Under the pieces are notes generated by a model that saw nothing but the letters and a program-made list of their open reading frames with translations, was not told the DNA's origin and made no database searches. From an uncultured bacterium (lineage in GTDB: Bacteria; Desulfobacterota; BSN033; UBA1163), in the NCBI GenBank assembly GCA_938002255.1, contig CALLAL010000030.1, positions 1-63,395 on the forward strand: a stretch of DNA of 63,395 nucleotides. Reading direction: 5' to 3'. A program made the position numbers and the translations under genes. Below, in pieces: positions 2,336-7,890 of the stretch; within the stretch, counting starts at the first letter, position 1; each line of letters opens with the position of its first letter.

Positions 2336-3140
2336 TTGAATCTCCTTTATGATTTAATAGGTTATAGATAAGGGATTTTCCTCTCTTTTGAAGAAAATGG
2401 GAGTGAAAAACACTGAAGAAAGAGAAGGGTGGATAAAGAATCACAATGATCTGGAAAAGATACAAGATGGCCTCTGCCTTCTGGAATTGATTGAAGAGAC
2501 CAAATATTCCATAAAAACCAAAGAATATCGGCATCAGTGTCCCGGCATATTTTCCAATCATTCTAATTTCATGATTCTTTCGGTTAAAGTACCGAATTCC
2601 CATATCATCAAGTGTCCATAGCGTGGACAGAAGAAGAGAGATTATGATGGTGATCCCTGTTACGATCAGGAATCGTGCAACTTGGAATTTACCTGTTGGA
2701 ATCATGAGGGAGGCTGTAGCGACTTCACCTGTAACGATTTGAAGGACAAGAAGAAGTTTCGCTCCGAAGAGAAGACCAATGCCAATGCCCTGAAAGGGCC
2801 GAAGGAGCCAATGTTTTATAGGATGAAACTCAATATCCTCTTTTCCCTCAAATTGAATAAAGGCTTCATTTCTCCTCTGGACTAATTGACTCAGACCTTT
2901 GAAGATAGGAAATAGAATATAAAGAGGGAAGCAGAGGAGAAGCGTGATCCTCAAGAACCTGAAGAGTCCTTTGTAAACTGCCTCGTATCCTCTGAGAAAA
3001 GTGAAATCGCCTAAAAAGATGGAAAGGCCAATCGTAAGCATCAAAATCGCCACCGCATGGCCTATCTCCTTGGACCATTGGCGAAATTTAGACGATGGTA
3101 AAGAGGTCATCACTTCCATTGTCTCCTGTTTCCCATTCAA
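2322..3140 (-). CDS. Six-helix integral membrane protein of unknown function
   Basis: Up to 272 residues with six predicted membrane helices and short loops. I do not recognise a family. It overlaps the zf-HC2 gene upstream by 53 bases if the first ATG is used; internal ATGs at 3119 and 3110 are alternatives (an AGGAG lies just before 3119), so the true start is uncertain. Placement between a zf-HC2 protein and a TPR/HtrA pair suggests a role in an envelope stress or membrane complex. No catalytic motif is visible. Confidence 0.7.
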   Translation of the reverse strand: MNGKQETMEVMTSLPSSKFRQWSKEIGHAVAILMLTIGLSIFLGDFTFLRGYEAVYKGLFRFLRITLLLCFPLYILFPIFKGLSQLVQRRNEAFIQFEGKEDIEFHPIKHWLLRPFQGIGIGLLFGAKLLLVLQIVTGEVATASLMIPTGKFQVARFLIVTGITIIISLLLSTLWTLDDMGIRYFNRKNHEIRMIGKYAGTLMPIFFGFYGIFGLFNQFQKAEAILYLFQIIVILYPPFSFFSVFHSHFLQKRGKSLIYNLLNHKGDSNEEK

Positions 3141-3333
3141 TATCCAAGGTAAGATCGTTTGGTATATAAAACTTTTCCTTAAAGATCTGGGAAACCCTTT
3201 TTAACTCATCCAGATAGGATTGGCATCTCCCACATTGAGAAAGGTGCTTTAGAAGCGTAATCACCTTTTTCCCTCTTAATTCCTGATAGGAATAAAGGAT
3301 CAAAGATTCCTCATATCTTGGACATGGGTTCAT
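3088..3333 (-). CDS. zf-HC2 domain protein (anti-sigma-factor-like)
   Basis: 81-residue protein with a C4...H30-x3-C34-x2-C37 zinc-binding pattern typical of the zf-HC2 domain found in zinc-containing anti-sigma factors. It lacks the membrane segment and periplasmic sensor of full-length anti-sigma factors; the six-TM protein encoded next may replace it. No ECF sigma gene adjoins it in the window, so an anti-sigma role is not demonstrated. GGAG lies seven bases before the ATG. It is the first gene of the operon running through HtrA. Confidence 0.75.
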   Translation of the reverse strand: MNPCPRYEESLILYSYQELRGKKVITLLKHLSQCGRCQSYLDELKRVSQIFKEKFYIPNDLTLDIEWETGDNGSDDLFTIV

Positions 3334-3495
3334 TTTTCAACTCCAGTTATCTGCAGATAATGCTTGCTGCCTCTTCTTGTTTCGTAAAAACTCAATCCAC
3401 AGATGAAGGCTCGCTCCGATGTCTTCATAAAAATTGCAATGCCGGCTTTCTATAAAATGATGGTTATTTCTGCAATGGATTTTGGTAGTCAGGCC

Positions 3496-4612: not shown

Positions 4613-4951
4613 TCACACTTTTTCAGCGTGAACCTCGGGGATGGTCTTATGGCGTTTAATTTCTTGTCCACAATAGGGGCAAAAGATTGCCTCACCTTTT
4701 TTGGAGAGGGACGAATCTTTCAAAGCCTTAAAAAAGTATCCTGCAATCAAAATTCCAGCCACAATCAAGATTAACATCCCGAAAAAGGGAAAAACTGGCC
4801 AAATCCTCGGGCCGAAATAGTGATATCTCAAACCCCACATGGGATAAGGTATAGGATAGAATGGCCAGACGTGGAAAAAGATTTTGTAAATGATCCCCAC
4901 GACCACCAAAATTCCTGCAACAATCAATCCCCAGCGAAAAAAAGTTTTCAT
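4613..4951 (-). CDS. Small two-helix membrane protein with C-terminal zinc ribbon
   Basis: 112 residues: a membrane helix at about 7-27, a proline/tyrosine/tryptophan-rich loop, a second helix at about 56-74, then a FCPYCGQEIKRH half zinc ribbon. Function unknown. AAAGGAGG lies eight bases before the start. An IS200-like element is inserted just upstream of the ribosome-binding site, so its native promoter may be separated from it. Confidence 0.7.
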   Translation of the reverse strand: MKTFFRWGLIVAGILVVVGIIYKIFFHVWPFYPIPYPMWGLRYHYFGPRIWPVFPFFGMLILIVAGILIAGYFFKALKDSSLSKKGEAIFCPYCGQEIKRHKTIPEVHAEKV

Positions 4952-4979
4952 CGATTTATTCCTCCTTTATTGTTTTTAC

Positions 4980-5552
4980 AGGTCATGCCAGAAAACCCCA
5001 GGCTTTTAAACCTGGGGATGAATGGCATCCTTTCGAAGCGAAGCCAGGTAAAACATGGCGAAGCGGAGCAAATTCCGACATGATCTGGCTATGGCTAAAT
5101 ATCAGACTGGGTCCCATACGAAACACCGCTTGCAGTACCACCTGGTGTGGATACCGAAATATCGTCGGCGTGTACTGCGAGGCAAAATGGTCAGCCGCCT
5201 GAGAAAGTTGTTATACGAAGCATGCCGGATCAATAAGTGGTGGATCAGTGAGCTGAGTATCCAGGAGGACCACATGCATCTTATCATCCAGGCGAAGCCA
5301 GAGGATAGTGTGGCAGAAGTGGTACAGAGGCTGAAAGGGGGAACGAGTCGGGTGATAAGAAAAGAGTATCCGGAGCTGGAAGAGTTTTTATGGGGAGATA
5401 GTTTTTGGGGGGATGGGTATTTTGCCGAGACAGTAGGCAAGGTTGATGAAGAAGTCGTGCGGCGATATATCAAGGAACAACGTCGGTAATCATGCCAGAT
5501 CATGTCAGCAAGTCCTGAAACCACCGGCTTTAGCCCGGGGAGTGGGTTCATT
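4980..5552 (+). mobile_element. IS200-type insertion sequence (tnpA only)
   Basis: A single Y1 transposase gene is bracketed by subterminal hairpins expected of IS200/IS605 elements: left CCCCAGG-N8-CCTGGGG at 4996-5017, right a GC-rich imperfect palindrome at 5521-5546. A TTAC tetranucleotide lies just outside the left end and TTCATT just outside the right palindrome, so the exact cleavage points are estimates. No tnpB/ωRNA partner is present. A similar ATTCCTCCTTTA sequence occurs on both sides of the element. Confidence 0.75.
5055..5489 (+). CDS. tnpA: IS200/IS605-family Y1 transposase TnpA
   Basis: 144 residues, within the size range of TnpA single-strand DNA transposases. It has the HUH metal-binding motif H73-M-H75, the GYFAETVG block, and the C-terminal YIKEQ motif with nucleophile Y138 and Q142 spaced as in characterised enzymes. 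It therefore looks intact. A start at 5091 is possible, but 5055 has AGG at good spacing. Confidence 0.92.
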   Translation: MAKRSKFRHDLAMAKYQTGSHTKHRLQYHLVWIPKYRRRVLRGKMVSRLRKLLYEACRINKWWISELSIQEDHMHLIIQAKPEDSVAEVVQRLKGGTSRVIRKEYPELEEFLWGDSFWGDGYFAETVGKVDEEVVRRYIKEQRR

Positions 5553-5574: not shown

Positions 5575-6489
5575 TTACCGGCGGTAACCCTTTCGAGGTC
5601 CCCTGCCAACCCCAACATTGATCCCGAATTCTGTCCCCATTCCAAGCATGCAATCCGATGGGAGTTGGTCCAGTTGTTCATTCGTGAATATCGAGCGTGC
5701 CTTGATCTGATAATAAAGGGAGAGACGTTCAAGTTTTGATTGAAGTTCCAGGATCCTGCTCTGGCGGTCAAGAATGATCTTTGGATCAATCCTGGGATCA
5801 GAAACCAATTCGCGAAACTCAACATTTGAGATCATCAGGTTTCTGCGGATGGGAGCTGTCTCGGCATAAAAAGAATTCTGGAGATCCCTTAAGGCTTTTA
5901 ACTGTTCTGTTGTTAGAAGACTTGATAAAGATTTTGAACAGTTTCTTCCTACTGCTGACCCGAAAGAAGGTCTATACTGAACATATAGAGGCTCCTCTGC
6001 CTTTGAGTATGGGAAGTTAAAGAGCGTAATGAGAAAGAAAACGAATACAAGTGCTATGCTCTTAAAAATAGTCTTAATCTTTGACTTATTGGAACTCTGC
6101 GGAAAAGAATGAGCTTCATCGCTTTTGGAACTTGAAAGAACATCAAGAAAGGCAAAAAATTTTCCCCAAACAATAGGTTTGTGTAAAAGACCGTCGATCT
6201 TCTTCGTGATCGCTTTTCCCTTAATCTCTTCGTTCACAAGAGCGCTCATCAAAATTGTCTTTAACTCAGGTTGGATGACTTTCGCCCTCTGTATCAGCTC
6301 AAATCCATCCATTCCGGGCATTTGGAGGTCAGTAATGAGAATATTAAAACATTCCTTGTTAAGACACGTAACCGGATCCTCTCCACCAGCACAAGATTGA
6401 GTCTCATAACCTGAGCTTTGAAGGAGTTTTTCCATTACACCTCTTGAGAACTCATCATCTTCAACGATTAAGATTCTTCTCGTTTTCAT
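5575..6489 (-). CDS. Response-regulator receiver fused through a membrane helix to a Spy/CpxP-like periplasmic domain
   Basis: 304 residues in one open frame. Residues 1-118 are a CheY-like receiver with acidic pair D11/D12, phospho-acceptor D54 (LITDLQMPGMDG), S82 and K104. A basic linker leads to a membrane helix at about 141-159. Residues 185-275 form a helical domain like Spy/CpxP/ZraP (LTTEQLKALRDLQ, then an ITPIQQ-like APIRRNL stretch), and the tail is Gly/Arg-rich. The topology predicts a cytoplasmic receiver and a periplasmic chaperone or metal-sensing domain. There is no internal Met at the junction, so a split gene is unlikely. It lies last in a run with two Spy-like genes. Function inferred only. 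Confidence 0.85.
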   Translation of the reverse strand: MKTRRILIVEDDEFSRGVMEKLLQSSGYETQSCAGGEDPVTCLNKECFNILITDLQMPGMDGFELIQRAKVIQPELKTILMSALVNEEIKGKAITKKIDGLLHKPIVWGKFFAFLDVLSSSKSDEAHSFPQSSNKSKIKTIFKSIALVFVFFLITLFNFPYSKAEEPLYVQYRPSFGSAVGRNCSKSLSSLLTTEQLKALRDLQNSFYAETAPIRRNLMISNVEFRELVSDPRIDPKIILDRQSRILELQSKLERLSLYYQIKARSIFTNEQLDQLPSDCMLGMGTEFGINVGVGRGPRKGYRR

Positions 6490-6509
6490 GGTCTAACCTC
6501 ATGAATCTG

Positions 6510-6549
6510 AGAGAGGGATAGGAAAGGAGTCTCAATCCTATCCCTCTCT
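6510..6549 (-). other. Perfect 14-bp intergenic hairpin
   Basis: AGAGAGGGATAGGA (6510-6523) and its exact complement (6536-6549) enclose a 12-base loop between the Spy-like gene and the receiver-Spy fusion. No T-tract follows on the minus strand, so it is not a standard terminator; an mRNA-processing or stabilising element that sets relative expression is more likely. Confidence 0.6.
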
Positions 6550-6557
6550 GATCAAGA

Positions 6558-6914
6558 TTATGGTGTTATCACCTTGAGGATCTCTGTTCTCAACTTAGTT
6601 GATTCCTGCTGGAGTTTATCCACAAGGTCGAAAATCTCCTTCTGCAAGGCATTGATCCTCGCCTGATCTGGATTTTGCTCGAGCCATAGACGCCTAAGTT
6701 CTAATTTCTTTGAATACAGCTCTTGTTGAATCGGGGTGATCTTTTCAAAATGGGCCTGCTGAAGGGCTAAAATCTTTTGGGACTGCTCAGGAGTTAGATT
6801 CGGGACCATAGGTCCCACACCATAAAATCTGCCTCCCCATGGGCCGGCCAATGCTGCCGAGGCCATCAGTGCCAACGCCAAAACCAAACTCATTAAACCT
6901 ATTGTCTTTTTCAT
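6558..6914 (-). CDS. Periplasmic Spy/CpxP/ZraP-like protein
   Basis: 118 residues: signal peptide (about 1-23, ending near ALA) and a four-helix-type region with LTPEQSQKILALQQ and ITPIQQELYSKK motifs, characteristic of the LTxxQ family. Such proteins are periplasmic chaperones or zinc-binding stress proteins induced by envelope damage or metals. AAGGAGGT precedes the ATG. It lies between a longer paralogue (6997-7446) and the receiver-Spy fusion, all on the minus strand. Confidence 0.85.
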   Translation of the reverse strand: MKKTIGLMSLVLALALMASAALAGPWGGRFYGVGPMVPNLTPEQSQKILALQQAHFEKITPIQQELYSKKLELRRLWLEQNPDQARINALQKEIFDLVDKLQQESTKLRTEILKVITP

Positions 6915-6962
6915 ACTAAGGACCTCCTTTTCGTAAATTGGTTAAATAGGTTAGTTGAAAGT

Positions 6963-6985
6963 GGGCAGGGATAAATTCCCCGCCC
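6963..6985 (-). other. Intergenic GC hairpin
   Basis: GGGCAGGG and CCCCGCCC form an imperfect stem around a 7-base AT-rich loop just after the stop of the 6997-7446 gene. It lacks a following T-run on the minus strand and may be an attenuator or 3'-end stabiliser within the Spy operon. Confidence 0.4.
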
Positions 6986-6996
6986 GTTCGTTTGTC

Positions 6997-7446
6997 TTAC
7001 CAGCGACCCATACGGCTCATCTTCATCCCACGGCCCATTCCTAAACCACCATAGAGAGAGAGTTGAGCCTGTTGCTCTGGAGTGAGAACCTTCCGAATTT
7101 CAAGCCTAAGATGAGTAGCCTTCTCGGTGATTTTGGCCTGAAGGTTCAAAATCTCCTTCTGGAGGGAAGTGATTTTGACCTGATCAGGAGTTGGACTCAG
7201 CCACAGACTCCGGAGCTCGGTCTTTTTTTTCAGAAGATCCTGCTGAATCGGTGTGATCTCATCCAGATGGGCTTTCTGCAGAGCCTGAATCTTGGAGGAT
7301 TGCTCTGTGGTCAGGTTGGAAACGGCAGGGTAACCATATCCATATCCTGGCCCAAACCCTCTGCCCATCCCTCCAGCAAAGGCCATCGTTGCCATCAGGG
7401 CGACTGCTAAAACGAGGCCTAAACCAATGATGCTTTTCTTTTTCAT
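6997..7446 (-). CDS. Periplasmic Spy/CpxP/ZraP-like protein (longer paralogue)
   Basis: 149 residues with a signal peptide (about 1-25), a Gly/Tyr-rich segment after it, the LTTEQSSKIQALQKAH and ITPIQQDLLKKK motifs, and a Met/Gly/Arg-rich C-terminus that could bind metal. Same LTxxQ family as the next gene; the two align well through the helical core. The ribosome-binding site AAAGGAGGTGA is near-perfect. In ZraPSR systems a zinc-binding ZraP is controlled by a sigma-54 two-component pair; a similar pair is encoded divergently here. Confidence 0.87.
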   Translation of the reverse strand: MKKKSIIGLGLVLAVALMATMAFAGGMGRGFGPGYGYGYPAVSNLTTEQSSKIQALQKAHLDEITPIQQDLLKKKTELRSLWLSPTPDQVKITSLQKEILNLQAKITEKATHLRLEIRKVLTPEQQAQLSLYGGLGMGRGMKMSRMGRW

Positions 7447-7569: not shown

Positions 7570-7890
7570 TTAACAGCGGAGAGGCACCGCCCTTGAGGGG
7601 ATACTTGAGGGGATATTGGAAGTCATTAAGCGAGAGTTGAAACCCTGTGAACTTGGGGAATGAACAGATGTGGATTCAGAGACCATTTCAAGTAAATCTG
7701 TAATCCCATGGTTTTCTTGAGAGACGATAAAGTTGAAAAGGCAGGGGTTGCATTTAATCGATTGCTTGCCTTGAGAAAATGGACAACCCGCTCCAATTTT
7801 TTGGACAAAGTTTAATGGAGTTATCCCTAAAAGGATCGGAATAAGAATCATTGCGAGTATGGTGAAAAATAATTTGTATCTACCAGACAT
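7570..7890 (-). CDS. Small exported or membrane-anchored protein with Cys cluster, unknown function
   Basis: 106 residues with one hydrophobic N-terminal segment (about 7-27) followed by a CPFSQ...CNPC arrangement (three cysteines within about 15 residues). The C-terminal half is Ser-rich and low in recognisable structure. I recognise no family. GAGGG lies before the ATG, and a sigma-54 promoter ends about 29 bases upstream, which supports the gene being real and the first of the Spy-like transcription unit. Confidence 0.6.
   Translation of the reverse strand: MSGRYKLFFTILAMILIPILLGITPLNFVQKIGAGCPFSQGKQSIKCNPCLFNFIVSQENHGITDLLEMVSESTSVHSPSSQGFNSRLMTSNIPSSIPSRAVPLRC

Follow-up and report, generated by a model that had tools for sequence, protein, structure and literature searches.

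What does a response-regulator receiver do when it is placed in front of an export signal and a Spy-like periplasmic domain? This question is raised by a gene at 5575-6489 (minus strand) of the window, the whole 63,395-nucleotide stretch of DNA analyzed here, which stems from an uncultured bacterium of the Desulfobacterota. An earlier note on this DNA had described the product as a cytoplasmic receiver joined by a membrane helix to a periplasmic Spy/CpxP-like domain. The open reading frame runs from an ATG at 6489 to a TAA at 5575 and encodes 304 amino acids with no internal stop. The chain begins with an intact receiver, continues through a charged linker and a single hydrophobic helix, and ends with a domain assigned to the ZraP/CpxP/Spy superfamily (here termed Spy3). 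The described layout is thus borne out by the uninterrupted frame, by Pfam and by full-length homologues.

Full-length fusions were found in 4 of the 17 genomes of our family sample, namely the window genome (G000), G010 (71% identity, 304 aa), G011 (70%) and G015 (46%, 301 aa), the latter three belonging to genera other than that of G000. Since these three genomes were assembled separately and share the identical layout, an artefact caused by a frameshift or a chimeric contig was rejected. For the same reason, the stop or frameshift between the domains that the earlier note had named as its refutation is unlikely. Separate translation of the periplasmic half was likewise rejected for the window gene: ATG, GTG and TTG are absent from codons 86-165, so that this half cannot use an ordinary internal start. 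Possible internal start codons are present in the fusions of G010, G011 and G015. We conclude that this uncommon signalling protein genuinely exists and that its layout is kept across genera. A literature search for a receiver-helix-Spy-like architecture found no paper on it among those listed, and a term search of the domain-survey paper PMC4558063 returned no match; the layout therefore seems undescribed, as the earlier note had supposed.

The receiver domain covers aa 1-120 (6130-6489, minus strand) and includes D11, D12, D54, S82 and K104. Pfam assigns Response_reg (PF00072) to aa 6-106, the score of 73.2 bits being well above the cut-off of 30.2 (E 2.4e-20), and AlphaFold2 models the domain with a pLDDT mostly above 90. 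D54, previously proposed as the phosphorylatable residue, is in the right position for this role, with D11 and D12 and K104 also present and S82 in the Thr/Ser place. Together with P105, the residues D11, D12, D54 and K104 are invariant in all four fusions, and the Thr/Ser position is occupied by Thr in the other three. Judged by these residues, the phosphorylation site of the receiver is predicted to be intact. Omega values of 0.10-0.13 were obtained for the receiver over synonymous distances above 1 (Nei-Gojobori, three pairs with estimable dS), and the G015 receiver shares 55-57% identity with the other three fused receivers. The receiver is under purifying selection.

The periplasmic Spy3 half (aa 165-304; 5578-5997, minus strand) was assigned from a weak Pfam match, its similarity to a neighboring protein and structural matches. 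The Metal_resist profile (PF13801) matches aa 190-272 of the fusion with 18.1 bits, below the cut-off of 29.2, and PF07813 was not reported by Pfam. Homology to ZraP, CpxP and Spy is supported indirectly via Spy1, a 149-aa exported ZraP-like protein encoded at 6997-7446 (minus strand), which passes the cut-offs of both PF13801 and PF07813 and which the Spy3 half matches at E 7.5e-10 (over 7024-7326). In line with this, a joint profile of Spy3 and its sister proteins (A1) finds ZraP at E 1.4e-14, but a profile of Spy3 alone (A2) finds it only at E 0.18. Modelled by AlphaFold2 apart from the rest of the chain and folded with the window proteins Spy1 and Spy2, the periplasmic half forms a long helical hairpin with a core pLDDT near 90. 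ZraP, CnrX and CpxP chains lead the PDB ranking of this model, with Foldseek E values from 0.008 upwards and none below 0.001. Omega values of 0.10-0.14 for the Spy3 half (Nei-Gojobori, three pairs with estimable dS) show that it is under purifying selection as well. Cys184 and Cys280 flank the helical hairpin and are invariant in all seven Spy3 domains; a disulfide or a metal site is possible.

Among the structural matches, ZraP of the E. coli and Salmonella ZraPSR system (PDB 3lay) is the best, with a VIA Z of 9.4 over 80 residues and an rmsd of 2.5, followed by CnrX (9.1), NccX (8.5), CpxP (8.3) and Spy (8.0), although for helical matches neither Z values below 13 nor Foldseek E values above 0.001 are decisive. 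ZraP is not known to carry a receiver. CpxP and Spy, soluble periplasmic proteins with no known cytoplasmic domain, would share the superfamily fold, and LTxxQ-type motifs are found at both hairpin ends of the window half; they differ in that the own sequence match of the Spy3 half remains below the Pfam cut-off. CnrX and NccX, metal sensors of Cupriavidus with a Spy-type fold, are anchored in the membrane by an N-terminal helix and have an anti-sigma factor as partner, but carry no receiver.

The two halves are joined by a fast evolving linker, modelled as disordered (aa 121-137; 6079-6129, minus strand), and by a hydrophobic helix that ends in a signal-peptidase-like site (aa 138-164, ending FNFPYSKA followed by EE; 5998-6078, minus strand), as judged by AlphaFold2, the length of the hydrophobic core and the invariant Ala164. 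In the whole-chain AlphaFold2 model the receiver is confident, residues 124-137 are disordered, a helix spans 138-157, residues 158-180 are again disordered, and helices follow over 180-286. Of the initial list of 32 receiver loci, 23 entered the alignment for this full-length model; stops led to the omission of L035 and L089, and L058, L064, L070, L072, L094, L096 and L103 were also omitted, unchecked. Lys residues at 135, 137, 139 and 143 precede the helix and Glu-Glu follows it, so that an N-in/C-out orientation is expected, in agreement with the proposed placement of the receiver in the cytoplasm and the Spy-like domain in the periplasm. For the same three pairs, the Nei-Gojobori omega amounts to 0.19-0.56 in the linker and 0.38-0.97 in the helix. 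Non-synonymous change in the joining segment is 2 to 9 times faster than in either domain, the pair G000-G015 being saturated at synonymous sites and yielding no usable domain ratio.

Ala164 occupies the -1 position of a signal-peptidase-I-like site and is invariant in all seven Spy3 homologues, where it is followed by E, Q or K and then by E or D. The -3 residue is Ser in G000, Thr in G010, Pro in G011 and Ser in G015 among the fusions, and Ser in G014, Leu in G006 and Ser in G013 among the unfused homologues, in which the helix region of the fusion corresponds to a plain N-terminal signal-peptide-like segment. The hydrophobic core measures 17 residues in G000, 19 in G010, 17 in G011 and 12 in G015. 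Because the alanine is invariant also in the three homologues without a receiver, a cut between the receiver and the periplasmic half is possible, and the two would then come apart. The short core of G015 fits a signal peptide better than an anchor and favors a cut, and we consider cleavage after Ala164 by signal peptidase I probable from these sequence features. Against this reading, the cores of 17-19 residues in G000, G010 and G011 could stay uncut, and G011 carries Pro at -3. If the chain is cut, single-chain trans-membrane signalling would fail, leaving a receiver that is kept at the membrane and produced in parallel with a periplasmic protein.

These observations bear directly on the proposal of the earlier note that phosphorylation of the receiver alters the periplasmic domain, or the reverse, in one intact chain with the helix as an uncut anchor as in CnrX. 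Such coupling is consistent with the uninterrupted single chain kept in four genomes, with a helix modelled as 20 residues, and with CnrX and NccX, which have this type of fold and rank close behind ZraP in the structural comparison. It is weakened by the signal-peptide-like nature of the helix with its invariant Ala, the short G015 core, the disordered linker, the fast-evolving join and a receiver alpha-1 helix unlike that of the regulator belonging to the neighboring kinase, and we know of no precedent for a receiver that signals through a single helix. Coupling through the chain is thus not the most likely mode of action; we consider it unlikely, and this part of the earlier note is left without support.

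The fusion is the last of a row of four genes on the minus strand. The row starts with a small exported Cys-containing ORF of 106 aa (7570-7890, minus strand), kept as 102 aa in four other loci, and continues with Spy1 and Spy2, the latter a 118-aa exported ZraP-like protein (6558-6914, minus strand) that matches PF13801 above cut-off. A putative sigma-54-like promoter, TGGCATTGAGGTTGCT, lies at 7930-7945 (minus strand), with 10 of 12 consensus matches and its TGG 55 nt before the first gene. All five loci with the 102-106-aa ORF carry such a site 51-57 nt before the first gene, with a score of 10 or 11 out of 12, and a score of 10 was reached in 0.31% of 20,000 random draws of 200-nt stretches of the window (0.0031). 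In G010, where the small ORF was not seen, a weaker sigma-54-like site (9 of 12) is located 109 nt before Spy1.

The gap before the fusion gene contains an intercistronic hairpin (6490-6557, minus strand; -29.1 kcal/mol). Strong hairpins of -25 to -32 kcal/mol precede the Spy3 gene in all seven loci, fused and unfused alike (the window, L128, L129, L130, L131, L108 and L132), and their stem sequences differ, with the exception of G000 and G010, which are the same. This arrangement suggests that the Spy3 gene is expressed at a level different from that of the preceding Spy genes. Another strong intercistronic hairpin is found at 6915-6996 (minus strand).

On the downstream side, a 112-aa membrane protein with a weak zinc-ribbon match (4613-4951, minus strand) follows directly after the fusion in G010 and G015. 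An IS200-type Y1 transposase at 5055-5489 (plus strand) lies between the fusion stop and the 112-aa gene in the window; since no more than about 24 bp separate these genes in G010, the element at about 4983-5546 is an insertion in the window. The stretch 4613-4982 is 99.7% identical to G010, a member of another genus, compared to 82% for the adjoining fusion region and 92% for 2336-3336, which points either to DNA exchanged recently or to an assembly in which sequence was wrongly placed.

Divergent from the Spy operon, the plus strand encodes a triplet consisting of a PhnD-like periplasmic binding protein (8146-9078; PF12974, E 2.7e-63), a membrane histidine kinase with an sCache domain (9075-10550; Pfam) and an NtrC-type sigma-54-dependent response regulator (10568-11941; Pfam). 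Orthologues of the kinase occur in 6 of the 17 family genomes, and in all six the triplet is intact, with the regulator beside the kinase. The NtrC-type regulator, the kinase and the sigma-54-like promoter beside ZraP-like genes resemble ZraPSR, from which the window differs by the additional PhnD-like protein. Moreover, the window kinase reaches 224.1 of the 479 bits of the ZraS equivalog cut-off and the regulator 456.4 of 760 for ZraR. Both are far below, and by these cut-offs the triplet is not ZraSR proper. Two tandem PhnD-like genes precede the kinase in G011 and G013 (L154, L155), compared to one in the window. Another ZraPSR-like cluster, which combines a kinase with ZraP-like genes, was observed at L009 (C36 of the window genome), L015, L016, L021 and L023; the L009 cluster also includes an NtrC-type regulator, and such clusters occur in several genomes of the genus.

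The kinase at 9075 had been put forward as the phosphodonor of the receiver. Its orthologues are present in six of the seven genomes with a Spy3 domain and in none of the ten without, a co-occurrence for which a hand calculation gives 7/12376 under the assumption of independent genomes, which these genomes are not. The triplet is adjacent to the Spy3 locus in G000 and G006, about 17 kb away in G015, and on a different contig in G010, G011 and G013. The specificity of phosphotransfer is largely set by helix alpha-1 of the receiver. Within the fusions, 9-13 of 13 alpha-1 positions are identical to G000, and within the triplet regulators 9-11 of 13, but fusions and triplet regulators share only 2-3 of 13. 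This mismatch makes the kinase at 9075 a doubtful donor in spite of its co-occurrence with the Spy3 domain. Among the other receivers of the window genome, no close alpha-1 match was found: the best share 4-5 of 13, and no candidate partner kinase emerged from this comparison, which covered 51 of 53 receivers, the neighboring regulator included (L004 and L005 not counted). Receivers can also bind kinases of which they are not substrates, an example being the sequestration of kinases by non-cognate regulators (PMC10368727).

The mismatch also counts against a second explanation, in which the fusion would grip the kinase at 9075 with two hands, the Spy domain on the sensor outside and the receiver on the kinase core inside, and by this feedback would silence the very system that had induced the operon. 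The co-occurrence just described argues for such an inhibitor, even though the genes are not adjacent in every genome. So do known cases: CpxP binds CpxA (PMC4160245), zinc-bound ZraP represses its own operon (PMC10848872), and Osp, a single receiver, inhibits CckA in a feedback loop (PMC9430884). Besides the divergent alpha-1 helix, G006 and G013 speak against it, as both keep the kinase without a receiver, and we likewise see little likelihood in this explanation. An intact membrane-spanning response regulator with a periplasmic ZraP-like output, reading phosphate inside and the folding or metal state outside, and touching a kinase from both sides, appears equally improbable.

Spy3 domains without a receiver are encoded in G006, G013 and G014 as proteins of 174-175 aa that start with the signal-peptide-like segment. 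In a 395-genome phylum sample, taken from a larger group, the Spy half has matches with an E value of at most 1e-9 in 36 genomes, and no open frame above 236 aa with this half was found there other than the four known fusions. A full-length search of this sample, which scored 5 candidates per genome in the matches listed, likewise found fusions in this family only. A 344-genome sample from the phylum of a Geobacteraceae MAG recovered five loci already known, which assigns the window to that phylum (Thermodesulfobacteriota in the NCBI lineage of Geobacteraceae). A 398-genome sample from the phylum of a Magnetococcales MAG gave no match, a search that had no positive control and does not imply absence. 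A search of named genomes for the layout returned receivers only among the best 80 of 564 matches. In the samples searched, fusions were thus found in this bacterial family only.

A quick tree of 92 rows, built from the fusions and 88 of 203 receiver stretches (duplicates removed from the 90 with the best scores), groups the four fused receivers in a single clade (SH-aLRT 99). In the tree of the Spy3 domain, fused and unfused members are interleaved, forcing at least two state changes, and the fused G015 pairs with the unfused G013 at a support of 99/99. A single fusion event with at least two later losses gives the best fit and is the probable history; transfer of the operon between genera is a possible alternative. 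A recent fusion private to the window species, an idea derived from the unfused G006 homologue, was rejected in view of the fusions in G010, G011 and G015. Some lineages maintain the receiver, and in others it is dispensable, because G006, G013 and G014 keep Spy3 without it, G006 and G013 together with the kinase. A functionless passenger receiver, placed before a signal peptide by chance and tolerated since the cut removes it, would agree with its absence from three of seven homologous loci, the state changes on the domain tree and the narrow distribution, but is very unlikely given its low omega over long synonymous distances, its invariant active-site residues and the identity retained between the most distant fusions.

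We tentatively favor the reading that the fusion is exported as a ZraP-like protein whose cytoplasmic tail is the receiver, the chain probably being cut, with the receiver remaining tethered to the membrane and acting on a second two-component system. The fusion would then represent a ZraP-like periplasmic accessory protein with a working receiver placed before the export signal. All four genes of the row, up to and including the fusion, would be activated by the triplet's NtrC-type regulator acting at the sigma-54 promoter. The Sec system would insert the helix such that the receiver stays cytoplasmic while the Spy-like domain comes to lie beyond the inner membrane, and signal peptidase I would probably cut after Ala164 in most molecules. 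Each cut would release one ZraP-like protein into the periplasm, as a chaperone or a sensor, and leave one receiver anchored by the remaining helix, so that the two products arise in equal number. The receiver might be phosphorylated by a kinase other than that at 9075 and could serve as a phosphate sink, competitor or connector, so that activation of the envelope-stress operon would alter the phosphate flow in a second two-component system. Besides the points raised above on the cut and on the partner kinase, two observations weigh against this mechanism: the hairpin before the fusion may mean low expression, and the receiver is absent in G006, G013 and G014 and hence dispensable.

The proposed tethered receiver has partial counterparts. 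Single-domain response regulators that serve as sinks or kinase inhibitors, such as Osp on CckA, likewise consist of a receiver without a DNA-binding output and may act on kinases (PMC9430884); they are soluble, whereas the fusion receiver would be tethered and made in a fixed ratio to a periplasmic protein. The archaeal MetOD3 similarly comprises a membrane-anchored response regulator output domain but is archaeal and rare, and the excerpts of PMC5847659 mention no Spy-like domain. The best reading is that the fusion is unusual within two known kinds, as a response regulator with an unusual output and as a ZraP-like accessory protein.

The usual outputs of receivers, DNA binding or an enzyme activity, are intracellular. 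If the present reading is true, the phosphate state of a two-component system would be linked to what is delivered beyond the inner membrane or, alternatively, a receiver would be fixed at the membrane in step with the synthesis of stress proteins. The natural unfused versions in close relatives provide a ready comparison for the contribution of the receiver.
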